Assembly (NCBI GenBank): GCA_015064155.1
Contig: SVST01000016.1
Coordinates: 1-64,000 of the forward strand
Direction: 5' to 3'
Source: Oscillospiraceae bacterium
Lineage (GTDB): Bacteria > Bacillota > Clostridia > Oscillospirales > CAG-272
Length of the DNA: 64,000 nucleotides
Part shown: one piece after another, positions 21,144 to 25,081 of the stretch
How the letters are laid out: every line of letters begins with the position of its first letter
How positions within the stretch are numbered: the stretch's first letter is position 1
Program-made: the position numbers and the translations under genes
The notes under the pieces: generated by a model
Database searches by the model: none
What the model saw: only the letters and a program-made list of their open reading frames with translations
What the model was told of the DNA's origin: nothing

Positions 21144-23336
21144 ATGGCAAAAAAACAAAAGAAAGAACAAAAAGAGATCGTATATGCCCCGATCGTCTAT
21201 CAGCCGATCACCGAAACCATTGAAAAAAACTACATGCCTTACGTCATGAGCGTCATTGTTTCCCGTGCCATTCCCGAAATCGACGGACTCAAGCCCTCTC
21301 ACCGTAAGCTTTTGTATACCATGTATAAAATGGGACTGCTCACGGGTCCTCGCACCAAAAGTGCCAATATCGTCGGTCAGACCATGCGGCTCAACCCCCA
21401 CGGTGACGCCTCCATTTACGAAACCATGGTGCGCCTGACACGCGGAAATGCCACGCTGTTACATCCCTTAGTGGACTCCAAGGGGTCGTTTGGTAAGCAG
21501 TATTCCTCGGATATGAAGTACGCCGCGGCGCGCTATACCGAATGTAAGCTCGATACCATCTGTAACGAGTTTTTCGGAGGTATTGATAAGGATGCCGTTG
21601 ACATGGTAGACAACTACGACGCTACCATGAAAGAGCCGATTCTGCTGCCCACCACCTTCCCCAATATTTTAGTCATGCCCAACAAGGGAATTGCCGTGGG
21701 AATGGCATCCGATATCTGCTCGTTTAACCTTGCCGAGGTCTGTGACGGAACCATCGCGCTCTTGCGCAAGCCCAATCTCTCGGTAGACAAGCTCATGGAG
21801 ATTATCAAGGCTCCCGATTTTTCGGGCGGCGGTACGCTCCTTTACGACCGTGAGCAGATCCGACAGATCTATACCACGGGTCAGGGATCGGTCAAGCTGC
21901 GCGCACGCTACGTCTACGACAAGCAAAACAGCTGCATCGATATTTTGCAGATCCCCTACTCCACCACCATTGAGATCATTCTTGCCAAGCTGACCGCGCT
22001 CTACAAGGAGGGCAAGATCAAGGAAATCACCGATTTCCGCGACGAAATCGACCTCAACGGCTTCAAGCTGACCCTTGACATCCGCCGCGGTGTTGACCCC
22101 GATAAGCTGATGATGAAGCTCTTTAAGCTGACCGCGCTTGAGGATAGCTTCAAATGCAACTTCAACGTGCTGATCAACAGCGTTCCGCGCACGATGGGCG
22201 TTGCCGAAATTCTCTCGGAATGGATCAAATTCCGCTTGGATTGTCTGCGTCGCGAATTGACCTTTGATCTTGGCAAAAAGCGCGACAAGCTGGAGCTGCT
22301 TTTGGGTCTTGGCAAAATTGTGTTGGATATCGACAAGGCAATCCGCATCATCCGTCACACCGAAAAGGAAGAGGACGTTGTTCCCAACCTAATGTCGGGC
22401 TTCTCCATTTCCGAGCGTCAGGCGAACTACGTTGCCGAGATCAAGCTGCGAAACCTCAACCGCCAGTATATCCTCAACCGCATCTCCGAAATTGAAAATC
22501 TGCAGAAAGAGATTGCGGACCTGGAGGAAACGCTTCGCGACGAGCTGAAGCAAAAGGCTTTGATCATCGCACAGCTCACCGAAATCAAAAAGAAATACGG
22601 TCAGCCGCGACTGACGCAGATTCTGCAAAGCGATGCTGTGGCAGAATACGTGGAGGAAGAGCATATCGAAAATTACCCTGCTCGCTTCGTGCTGTCACGT
22701 GCGGGCTACTTCAAAAAGATCACGTTCCAGTCGCTCCGCGGAAACGACGAGCAGATCTACAAGGACGGCGACAGTGAACTGAATCTTGTGGACGGCTCCA
22801 ACACCGACAATCTGATCTTTATCACCGACAAATGCCAGCTGTACCGCGCCAAAGCGGACGACTTCGGCACGACCAAGGCATCGGCATTGGGCGACTTCCT
22901 GCCTGCAACCCTCAAAATGGACACCGACGAAAAGCCGATTTTGATGAATATTCAAAACAGCTATCCCGAAAAAGAAAACTTCGTATTCATTTTTGCAAAC
23001 GGAAAAGGGGTGCGCATTGCGGCATCCAACTACGAGATTACGGGCAACCGACGCAAGCTGACCTCGGCATTCTCCAAAAACTCGCCGATTGTGGCGGCAT
23101 TCTACGAGAAAGCCCCCATGGAAATCATGCTGGTTTCCTCGGACAAGCGGGCGATCGTGATTAAATCCTCGCTCATTCCGCAAATGGCCACCCGAACCTC
23201 GGGAGGTTCTACGTTGATGAGCTTGAAAAAGGGGCAGACCCTAATCAGCGCGACCACCGATCTTTCCGCCATTCCGGACGGTGCAAAAAGCTTGAAAAAG
23301 ATCAAAATTCCAGCAACGGGTGTGCCGTTGCCCTAA
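21144..23336 (+). CDS. Type IIA DNA topoisomerase subunit A (GyrA/ParC family, divergent)
   Basis: YVMSVIVSRAIPEIDGLKPSHRKLLYTMYK; active Tyr context MKYAAARYTE; C-terminal strand-rich domain; 730 aa; no B subunit adjacent. Confidence 0.88.
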   Translation: MAKKQKKEQKEIVYAPIVYQPITETIEKNYMPYVMSVIVSRAIPEIDGLKPSHRKLLYTMYKMGLLTGPRTKSANIVGQTMRLNPHGDASIYETMVRLTRGNATLLHPLVDSKGSFGKQYSSDMKYAAARYTECKLDTICNEFFGGIDKDAVDMVDNYDATMKEPILLPTTFPNILVMPNKGIAVGMASDICSFNLAEVCDGTIALLRKPNLSVDKLMEIIKAPDFSGGGTLLYDREQIRQIYTTGQGSVKLRARYVYDKQNSCIDILQIPYSTTIEIILAKLTALYKEGKIKEITDFRDEIDLNGFKLTLDIRRGVDPDKLMMKLFKLTALEDSFKCNFNVLINSVPRTMGVAEILSEWIKFRLDCLRRELTFDLGKKRDKLELLLGLGKIVLDIDKAIRIIRHTEKEEDVVPNLMSGFSISERQANYVAEIKLRNLNRQYILNRISEIENLQKEIADLEETLRDELKQKALIIAQLTEIKKKYGQPRLTQILQSDAVAEYVEEEHIENYPARFVLSRAGYFKKITFQSLRGNDEQIYKDGDSELNLVDGSNTDNLIFITDKCQLYRAKADDFGTTKASALGDFLPATLKMDTDEKPILMNIQNSYPEKENFVFIFANGKGVRIAASNYEITGNRRKLTSAFSKNSPIVAAFYEKAPMEIMLVSSDKRAIVIKSSLIPQMATRTSGGSTLMSLKKGQTLISATTDLSAIPDGAKSLKKIKIPATGVPLP

Positions 23337-23379: not shown

Positions 23380-23541
23380 ATGGCAAAAAATTATAAATCC
23401 TCAAAATCCTCATATTCCCTGCCCGTTCGTATCATCACCATCGCACTGTCTGCGCTGGTTGCTTCGGGTGCTTTGGTCTACCTTGTGATGCTGTTGCTCA
23501 ACCTCTTCGGAGTCGGCTCCGGCGACGCGCACGTGCATTGA
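23380..23541 (+). CDS. Small single-pass membrane protein, unknown function
   Basis: MAKNYKSSKSSYSLPVRIITIALSALVASGALVYLVMLLLNLFGVGSGDAHVH; upstream purine-rich RBS AGAAAGGA. Confidence 0.6.
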   Translation: MAKNYKSSKSSYSLPVRIITIALSALVASGALVYLVMLLLNLFGVGSGDAHVH

Positions 23542-23567
23542 GCATAGGAGAAAGGGAGAATGATGTT

Positions 23568-23714
23568 GGGAGGGGGAGAACCCGTTTTGAAAAACGGTGT
23601 TCTCCCCCTCCCATACCCTCCCCCTCTCCCCAAAACTTTTACAAAAAAACGACGAGCGCACGGCACTCTGAACAAGTGCCGTGCGCCCGTCGTTTGCAAA
23701 CGCTTTGCGTTTGC
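23568..23714 (+). repeat. Multi-hairpin repeat element, copy A
   Basis: Hairpins GGGAGGGGGAGAAC..GTTCTCCCCCTCCC; ACGACGAGCGCACGGCACT..AGTGCCGTGCGCcCGTCGT; TGCAAACGCtttGCGTTTGCA; separated by CCCTCTCCCCAAAACTTTTACAAAA. Confidence 0.85.
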
Positions 23715-23737
23715 AGGGGTGGGTATTTTATAGTTTT

Positions 23738-23842
23738 TTATTCGAGAGAAACCGTGCCGTCGGTGCAGGTGACCGAGGTGGTGGGGACATCGTAGTTCCA
23801 ATAGGAACCCTTGGAAATCGCATTCCACTGGTCAACCGTGCC
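23738..23842 (-). pseudogene. Remnant of the C-terminus of a BspA-like leucine-rich-repeat surface protein
   Basis: Minus-strand translation GTVDQWNAISKGSYWNYDVPTTSVTCTDGTVSLE*, typical of Clostridia LRR_5 surface-protein tails; in-frame TAA just upstream and no N-terminal part. Confidence 0.7.
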
Positions 23843-23889
23843 TTATCTGTGCTTTTGAGAAAAACGCAATAGATAGTTTGGAGTAGACT

Positions 23890-24050
23890 ACCCCTCATCC
23901 GCCTCGTTCCTCGGCATCTATCTCGCCGCGGCTCGGTCACGCTCGGGTTCTGACAGCCCACCGTGCTGTCATTCATTGCCCTCGCGCCGCTTCGCTACCC
24001 CTCGGGAGAAGGCTTCTTTCGTTCCCTCCCTACAAGAGAAAATGCCGTAA
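23890..24050. repeat. Intergenic repeat-like sequence (CCCCTCATCCGCCTCG ... CCCCTCGGGAGAAGGC type)
   Basis: Non-coding, GC-rich, with ACAGCccaccGTGCTGT dyad and CCCCTCGGGAGAAGGC block resembling dispersed repeats in gut Clostridia; single copy in window. Confidence 0.45.
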
Positions 24051-24058
24051 TCCTCCCC

Positions 24059-24199
24059 TGCAAACGCAGAAGCGTTTGCAGAACGAGCGACGGACGAACC
24101 GCTAAACACGGCTCGTCCGTCGCTCGTTCTTTTGTAAAGGTTTTGGGGAGAGGGGGGTTAGGGGTAGAGGGACTTTTTCCGAAAAGTCCCTCTACCCCT
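24059..24199 (-). repeat. Multi-hairpin repeat element, copy B (inverted relative to copy A)
   Basis: Reverse complement carries AGGGGTAGAGGGACTTTT..AAAAGTCCCTCTACCCCT; CCCTCTCCCCAAAACCTTTACAAAA; GAACGAGCGACGGACGA..TCGTCCGTCGCTCGTTC; TGCAAACGCttctGCGTTTGCA. Confidence 0.85.
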
Positions 24200-24220
24200 A
24201 AAAAACCTCATTCCAAAAAC

Positions 24221-25081
24221 TTACTGCAACGGATGATTGCGGATAAACAACACACCAAGCGTGTTTCTGCCGCAGTGCGAGGAAACGGTACAGCCCGCGC
24301 GCGTCAAGTGTACTTCCTTGAACGCTGCCAAGGATTTGACCTCCTCCACGATCTCGGCACAAAGCTCGGGATCACAGCCTGCGTGAGTCACAAAGACACG
24401 GCTCATATCGATATCCGATGCGTCCCCGATCTGCTCGGCAACGTACTTTTTCAACACCTCGGCAAACTTTCCGCGGTATTTTTTGGTAACTCCCATCGAA
24501 CCGCCGCGCACCGAAATACAAGGCTTCAGATGTAACAGATTCGCGCCGAATGCCGCAAGTGCCGAGCAACGTCCGCCCTTGTGCAAGAACTCCAGGCTGT
24601 CGATCACAAAGGATGCGTCCACGCAAGATACCAGCTCTTTGCAAAGTGCCACGATTTCGGTAGCACTCTTGCCATCCTTCACCATTTCCGCCGCCGCAAC
24701 GACCACAAGTCCGCCACCCGTGGAAAGATTCATGGTGTCAACCACGTAGACGTTCTCAAACGATTCCGCCGCGACCCGTCCGTTTTGATTGGTGGACGAC
24801 ATTTTCGCGCTGATGGTAAAGAAAATAACGGTATATCCCTCGTCGGTATATTTCTTGAAAAAGTCCTCGTAATCCCCGATGTTGATGGCAGAGGTTTTGG
24901 GAAGAACCCCGTTTTTCTCGTAATAGTCATAGATGAAATCGGGATCAATATCCACACCGTCAGTGTATTCCCGATCCCCCAGCGTCACACCAAGCGGCAA
25001 CACCCGAATTCCGTATTTCGAAATCAATTCGTCGTTCAAATCCGCCGTGCTGTCGCAGGCAATCAAAATTTTCTCACTCAT
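24221..25081 (-). CDS. DegV family (fatty acid-binding) protein
   Basis: MSEKILIACDSTADLNDELISKYGIRVLPLGVTLGDREYTDGVDI; KTSAINIGDYEDFF; FIDSLEFLHKGGR-like. Confidence 0.93.
   Translation of the reverse strand: MSEKILIACDSTADLNDELISKYGIRVLPLGVTLGDREYTDGVDIDPDFIYDYYEKNGVLPKTSAINIGDYEDFFKKYTDEGYTVIFFTISAKMSSTNQNGRVAAESFENVYVVDTMNLSTGGGLVVVAAAEMVKDGKSATEIVALCKELVSCVDASFVIDSLEFLHKGGRCSALAAFGANLLHLKPCISVRGGSMGVTKKYRGKFAEVLKKYVAEQIGDASDIDMSRVFVTHAGCDPELCAEIVEEVKSLAAFKEVHLTRAGCTVSSHCGRNTLGVLFIRNHPLQ

Follow-up and report, generated by a model that had tools for sequence, protein, structure and literature searches.

Within the analysed window, a stretch of 64,000 nucleotides from a genome of 2.14 Mb in 29 contigs (assembly 86% complete; referred to as G000), the plus strand carries a gene for a DNA topoisomerase IV/gyrase subunit A-like protein (parC; 21144..23336; PF00521, 3e-122) and, after it, a gene for a small protein of 53 amino acids (23380..23541, plus strand), which faces a DegV-family gene on the minus strand (24221..25081). 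The 53-residue protein contains one likely membrane helix, has no Pfam match and also follows parC in the sister species G004, G025, G027, G017 and G008; an ORF similar to it is present in G003. The 3' ends of the small gene and of the DegV-family gene are each occupied by one copy of a repeated element, termed copy A (23567-23721, minus strand; ~1e-29 with the covariance model described below) and copy B (24053-24203, plus strand; ~1e-33). In antisense reading both copies show the order hairpin 3, hairpin 2, linker and hairpin 1. Folding as DNA yields all three hairpins in both copies, at z-scores of -12.8 and with a stability equalled in 0 of 200 shuffles. The preliminary description of the locus as an inverted pair of multi-hairpin repeats is thus accurate, as both copies lie at this place with three hairpins each; their inverted arrangement is, however, incidental, each copy ending one of two convergent genes.

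Hairpin 1 of copy A (23567..23613, minus strand; R arm GGGAGGGGGAGAAC.. and Y arm ..GTTCTCCCCCTCCC) starts 25 bp past the stop codon (23539-23541) of the small plus-strand ORF. It is neighboured by the segment 23616..23635 (minus strand, reading TTTTGGGGAGAGGGGGAGGG on that strand), which had earlier been described as a linker and is called the third strand below. Hairpin 2 (23647..23695, minus strand) consists of a variable stem with the loop TGTTCAG, followed on the minus strand by TTTTTTTG, and represents a clear terminator-like example on this strand; hairpin 3 (23695..23715, minus strand) is built from TGCAAACGC and GCGTTTGCA. The corresponding parts of copy B, all on the plus strand, are hairpin 3 (24059..24080), hairpin 2 (24080..24130), the third strand (24141..24157; TTTTGGGGAGAGGGGGG) and hairpin 1 (24158..24201), whose end is 19 bp away from the stop codon (24221-24223) of the minus-strand DegV-family gene. 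The third strand of copy A mirrors the R arm of hairpin 1 across its purine part, the mirror of the adjoining pyrimidine cap being absent, and the arm of copy B carries a G-C to T-A change with an unaltered third strand.

Between the two copies lies a C-terminal remnant of a repeated gene (23738..23842, minus strand; ..GTVDQWNAISKGSYWNYDVPTTSVTCTDGTVSLE*), which probably encoded a leucine-rich-repeat surface protein; about ten similar stretches, mostly of 107 bp, are found elsewhere in the genome. The hairpin 3 side of copy A comes after the stop codon of this remnant, and a similar C terminus adjoins another hairpin 3-hairpin 2 copy (G000:C5:88.2 kb); copy A may therefore have served the repeated gene before the latter was lost. 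The segment 23888-24052 is occupied by other interspersed repeats (CCCTCATCCGCCTCG.., CCCTCGCGCCGCTTCGCTACCCCTCGGG..) of a separate family, copies of which on contigs C9, C12, C27 and others are 87-96% identical.

Occurrence of the element and evolution of its hairpins

At least ten full copies were detected in G000 by a covariance model, which was built from the element and then searched against related genomes; G000 contains partial copies as well, and about 60 elements were collected. Of the 34 other genomes of the genus, 33 contain the element, which also turned up in several further genera of the bacterial family. A pattern for the unit of third strand and hairpin 1, in which only purines and a TTYTT on either side are specified and mirror symmetry is not imposed, gave 17 matches in G000 versus 0 for the backwards-pattern control, and across the bacterial family it was matched in 44 of 148 genomes, spread over 32 of 71 genera. 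In the class outside the family, from which ca. 390 genomes were drawn, one genome contained a real-looking unit. An earlier strict pattern was too narrow for counts, yet pointed to other phyla; Ca. Magnetomicrobium (Nitrospirota) harbours 16 pattern sites versus 0 for the backwards control.

Hairpin 2 is paired to 95% in eight full copies of G000 besides A and B, 16 of 19 pairs having both partners altered, and the pairing falls to ~40% when the alignment is slid as a control. The covariation score of the structure bearing hairpin 2 amounts to 0.598 compared with 0.205 for shuffles, none of 500 being as high. At one locus in G003, G009 and G024 the hairpin 2 stems have only the bases of the stems in common, are otherwise wholly different and are nevertheless completely paired. 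Hairpin 1 behaves similarly, as seen from a G-C to T-A double change at one locus in the same three genomes and from a T-A to C-G double change between the orthologous hairpins of G034 and G020. Compensatory stems are thus present within the genome and at orthologous loci, in line with the earlier suggestion that stems of different sequence, each self-complementary, bear the signature of selection for structure. At least 5 T within the next 9 nt follow hairpin 2 in 17 of 44 cases in the antisense direction and in 7 of 44 in the sense direction. We read hairpin 2 as a fast-evolving hairpin which would serve, in part of the copies, as a terminator for transcription from the far side. The sequence of hairpin 3 is invariant within G000 and therefore uninformative on covariation; a hairpin 3 of the G000 type is absent from the Nitrospirota units and from the short units of G000. 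As a further observation, the orthologous hairpins 2 of L100, L103 and L118, derived from close species, have their arms replaced en bloc with full pairing, which resembles template switching in palindromes.

Covariation of the linker with both strands of hairpin 1

The fixed skeleton noted previously holds for the overall architecture; the supposedly conserved linker is itself structural and constitutes the mirror of the hairpin 1 arm. Read in reverse, the linker matches the 5' arm of hairpin 1 in nearly every copy, as illustrated by the copy on contig C6 (linker TTCTTGGGAGGAGGGGTGG, arm GGAGGGGAGGAGGACTTCTT), by another linker/arm pair (TTTTGGGGAGAGGGGTGG and GGAGGGGAGAGGGACTTTT) and by a clean unit written on the antisense strand (AAGTTCTTGAAAGGGGTGTGGGGAAAACTTCTTGAAAGAAGTTTTCCCCAC). 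For 66 units, the summed mirror score between each third strand and its own arm is 765, the maximum in 20,000 permutations being 567; the mean score decreases from 11.6 for the own arm to 9.5 for arms within the same genome and 7.5 for those between genomes. Among 127 distinct sequences found with the pattern, the mean mirror score is 5.08, compared with -0.14 for direct repeats and 0.70 for shuffled halves. Because a best-centre mirror split favours the unit's own pair, more weight is given to these controls, to which the identical procedure was applied, and to the cap, for which third strand and arm agree on TTTTT or TTCTT in 131 of 134 units (p=1e-28), both types occurring matched inside single genomes. 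The lengths of the purine tracts in third strand and arm are likewise correlated (r=0.87). At a second orthologous locus the third strand and both arms all differ together between sister species. Judged from the sequences, dozens of related genomes and, separately, the Nitrospirota genome show joint change of the third strand and the two strands of the hairpin. Pairing of the linker with the 3' arm of hairpin 1 in another antiparallel register, which was considered as well, needs a self-mirror-symmetric tract and was not general on inspection.

Intrastrand triple helices are laid out as a mirror repeat next to a hairpin built from that tract, and the linker plus hairpin 1 has the sequence expected for such a helix, with a putative purine-motif body and a short pyrimidine-motif cap. 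The structured multicopy element anticipated in the preliminary description is supported, its account having missed the role of the linker as a third strand and the orientation to stop codons described below. G runs offer another conceivable basis for folding, since at least four of them extend over linker and arm in both copies of the window; an intramolecular G-quadruplex is nevertheless very improbable and was discarded, as four G runs of at least 3 nt exist in only 5 of the 127 distinct units, while 10 of the 127 lack any such G run and keep the mirror.

The covarying stems might also have a purely mutational origin, if both arms of hairpin 2 and of hairpin 1 are rewritten together, either by template switching in palindromes or by gene conversion from copy to copy. 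The replacement of hairpin 2 arms en bloc at ~83-90% flanking identity, which looks less like stepwise compensation than like rewriting, speaks for such a process. However, the repair of a palindrome equalises complementary arms and cannot make a mirror-image third strand, and conversion between copies would not yield both matched cap types within one genome. We therefore regard this origin as unlikely.

Orientation, position and the terminator slot

In 33 of 39 units for which the genes on either side are known, the pyrimidine side points towards the 3' end of a gene, and the distance between stop codon and unit is at most 31 bp in 31 of 40, most units being located 6-31 bp past the stop codon; these positions are based on simple ORF calls, by which 14 of 53 units fall inside ORFs, either spurious or real. 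The same orientation was obtained for 13 of 19 units at the level of the family, which lie 5-33 bp from the stop, and for 11 of 15 Nitrospirota units, which are spaced more loosely at 17-226 bp.

At both window loci the element is missing from sister species, whose corresponding slots carry an ordinary terminator or a hairpin. Behind the DegV-family gene, an ordinary intrinsic terminator is found in 4 of 4 orthologues in which the slot is clearly visible (G025, G017, G022 and G001); behind the small ORF, a hairpin with a T tail is present in G004, G027 and G008 and a strong hairpin without a clear T tail in G017 and G025. Hairpin 1 as an ordinary intrinsic terminator was rejected, as a U-tract in the direction of the gene (at least 5 T in 10 nt) accompanies it in only 1 of 105 units. 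From the terminators in the slots of sister species and the lack of a U-tract in the unit it follows that the unit fills a terminator slot, yet differs from an ordinary terminator.

These data also bear on mobility. The preliminary description had proposed a REP or MITE family mobilised in trans, and a MITE-like element, whose hairpins serve transposition and whose mirror symmetry arises secondarily from its richness in purines, would indeed explain that the copies are numerous and patchily distributed over genera and phyla and that their presence varies among species at the window loci. Moreover, copy B and the copy on contig C27 have 78 bp beyond the element in common (96%), from which we infer that some copies were duplicated along with their flanks. 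Neither the REP/RAYT variant nor a MITE with target-site duplications is supported by the domain search and flank comparison: the Y1_Tnp/RAYT domain gave 0 matches in the 86%-complete G000 assembly, with positive results in control genomes, and ten copies examined for target-site duplications have no shared flank of more than 6 nt, and at no constant position. In addition, sister species retain the elements at identical gene ends despite turnover of the element sequence, orientation and distance to the stop codon are fixed, and the copy-specific mirror, which exceeds permutation within the genome, is not explained by composition. A MITE-like nature thus appears quite improbable.

Proposed triplex fold and relation to known systems

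Triplex DNA has been disputed for decades, sequence potential alone being weak evidence of function, and evolutionary evidence for triple helix structures in nature is scant. Three strands that co-vary in many lineages, at a given position and orientation at gene ends, amount to a mutational test run by evolution. With modest confidence, we favour a composite intrastrand triplex unit which would take the place of the terminator at gene ends and act there as a one-way barrier. In the proposed fold, the antisense strand would contain, from 5' to 3', a cap (TTTTT or TTCTT), the purine third strand, a turn of ~3 nt and the purine arm, followed by a second cap, a tight loop, the cap complement and the pyrimidine arm at the 3' end, the two arms forming hairpin 1. 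The third strand would fold back along the major groove of hairpin 1, with its purines antiparallel to the purine arm in reverse-Hoogsteen G.GC, A.AT or T.AT triplets, and with the pyrimidine cap running parallel to the other strand of the hairpin, whose A/G it would contact in T.AT and C.GC triplets. Counter-evidence comes from the window itself, where copy A breaks the cap and the arm change of copy B is unmatched in the third strand. Folding programs, for their part, take no account of triplexes.

The mirror rule alone cannot tell which strand folds, but departures from it can. In the purine body, a third-strand T faces 24 of 385 A positions and 2 of 679 G positions (p=2e-9, in a scan without reward for T.A), in 12 genomes or loci compared to 1; these counts are small and partly inherited, and C as well as T prefers A positions, so that a specificity for T is tentative. 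T.AT counts among the recognised purine-motif triplets (PMC4666352). At the junction between purines and cap, a third-strand G often faces C, as do four G facing four C in G059, and a junction G opposite C is a parallel G.GC in DNA and no standard triplet in RNA. Considering that purine-motif triplexes are not formed in RNA while pyrimidine-motif ones can be (PMC4666352), both departures moderately favour the antisense DNA strand over RNA as the candidate folding strand.

The main rival to a DNA barrier is an RNA triple helix in the 3' UTR, which we consider possible at a distinctly lower level. R arm, Y arm and Y third strand of the sense mRNA would form a pyrimidine-motif triplex (U.AU, C+.GC), feasible in RNA as opposed to the purine motif (PMC4666352), that might protect the 3' end or help transcript release. 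Its position as the first 3' UTR structure, 6-31 nt after the stop codon and in a slot where orthologues carry terminators, suits such a role equally well, and the mirror rule is symmetrical, so that the main covariation fits to the same degree. The departures fit less well: the pyrimidines of the antisense third strand opposite A would correspond to A.AU or G.AU, outside the pyrimidine motif, G opposite the junction C and the GGGG opposite CCCC of G059 suit the parallel G.GC of DNA but not RNA, and the cap would turn into a purine motif in RNA.

Returning to the DNA barrier, the purine strand is the template for the gene's own transcription and the coding strand for transcription from the far side. 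According to Grabczyk and Fishman (1995), as cited in PMC6356060, purine tracts form triplexes or hybrids when they are in the transcribed coding strand and not in the template. By analogy, the barrier might let the gene's own RNA polymerase pass outward and block the entry of antisense or read-through transcription, assisted in some copies by the terminator-like hairpin 2. Such a one-way barrier would account for the orientation, the position and the replacement of terminators, which like the three-strand covariation are observed features. Terminator activity was, on the other hand, not seen for the triplex-forming PIT/BoxC elements of E. coli (PMC4666352). The wider proposal, that a selected alternate-strand DNA triplex of purine body and pyrimidine cap operates throughout the family and in Nitrospirota as a direction-sensitive barrier in place of an intrinsic terminator, is put forward more tentatively and somewhat below an even chance. 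If true, it would provide direct evolutionary evidence that cells use triple helices, reveal a terminator-like element invisible to terminator predictors and offer hundreds of natural variants for probing triplex rules and the effects of transcription direction.

Alternate-strand, i.e. mixed-motif, triple helices have been made with synthetic oligonucleotides, and like these the units would use a third strand of one polarity on the purines of one strand and then of the other; unlike them, they reside in natural genomes, consist of a single strand and covary. Bacterial intrastrand triplex motifs are already known (Hoyne and Maher 2000; Holder 2015, both as reviewed in PMC4666352), and the best reading of the present units would be a new composite variant of them. 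The ITxF class I (Holder et al. 2015, PMC4666352) shares the location on one strand in the order 5' reverse-Hoogsteen, purine, pyrimidine 3' with GGC, AAT and TAT triplets, which are found in the sequence, and the multicopy, patchy occurrence among close relatives. Differences are the extra, strand-switching pyrimidine-motif cap (class IV-like), the three-strand covariation, the set orientation and distance past stop codons, and the loop between R and Y, which with the cap measures ~12-16 nt versus the ITxF limit of 1-6 nt (PMC4666352), if the cap is not counted as stem; the turn has ~3 nt. BoxC/PIT/TMECO of Enterobacteria are likewise G/C-rich purine-motif intrastrand triplex repeats, at times in inverted pairs. 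TMECO, however, is a class II motif (Y-R-RH) of highly conserved sequence, without strand bias or fixed distance and more often upstream of ORFs, whereas the units described here are RH-R-Y and oriented to stop codons; neither the BoxC/PIT/TMECO consensus (CCCTCNCCC..GGGNGAGGG..GGGNGAGGG) nor its class II order or lack of orientation bias was found in them. With intrinsic (rho-independent) terminators the units share a GC-rich hairpin right after stop codons, but in 104 of 105 units hairpin 1 has no U-tract in the direction of the gene. H-DNA and the purine 'transcriptional diode', as presented in PMC6356060, also involve a mirror-repeat purine tract, with an effect dependent on transcription direction in the diode; H-DNA requires no inverted repeat, while the present arm is also part of a hairpin and one strand is enough. 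In the literature surveyed, mostly outside subscription journals, no natural mixed-motif unit, three-strand covariation or placement at stop codons is reported. Rfam families were rejected as an identity, with 0 hits in the window and otherwise matches far below the gathering scores, nearly all to microRNA hairpins, and none at or above threshold.

Several individual units deserve mention. A single unit of the same design is contained in the Desulfobacterales MAG DeMMO6_21 (L145), a member of a third phylum, for which horizontal transfer and convergence are both conceivable origins. The units of the Ca. Magnetomicrobium genome (L162-L177) fall into at least three sequence types, and several of them are followed by long T/C-rich simple-sequence tracts. 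In G000 itself, short triplex-type units are arranged in tandem, 129 bp apart, beside a CGGCAGTACCGA repeat (G000:C5:124951-125116; L151, L153).
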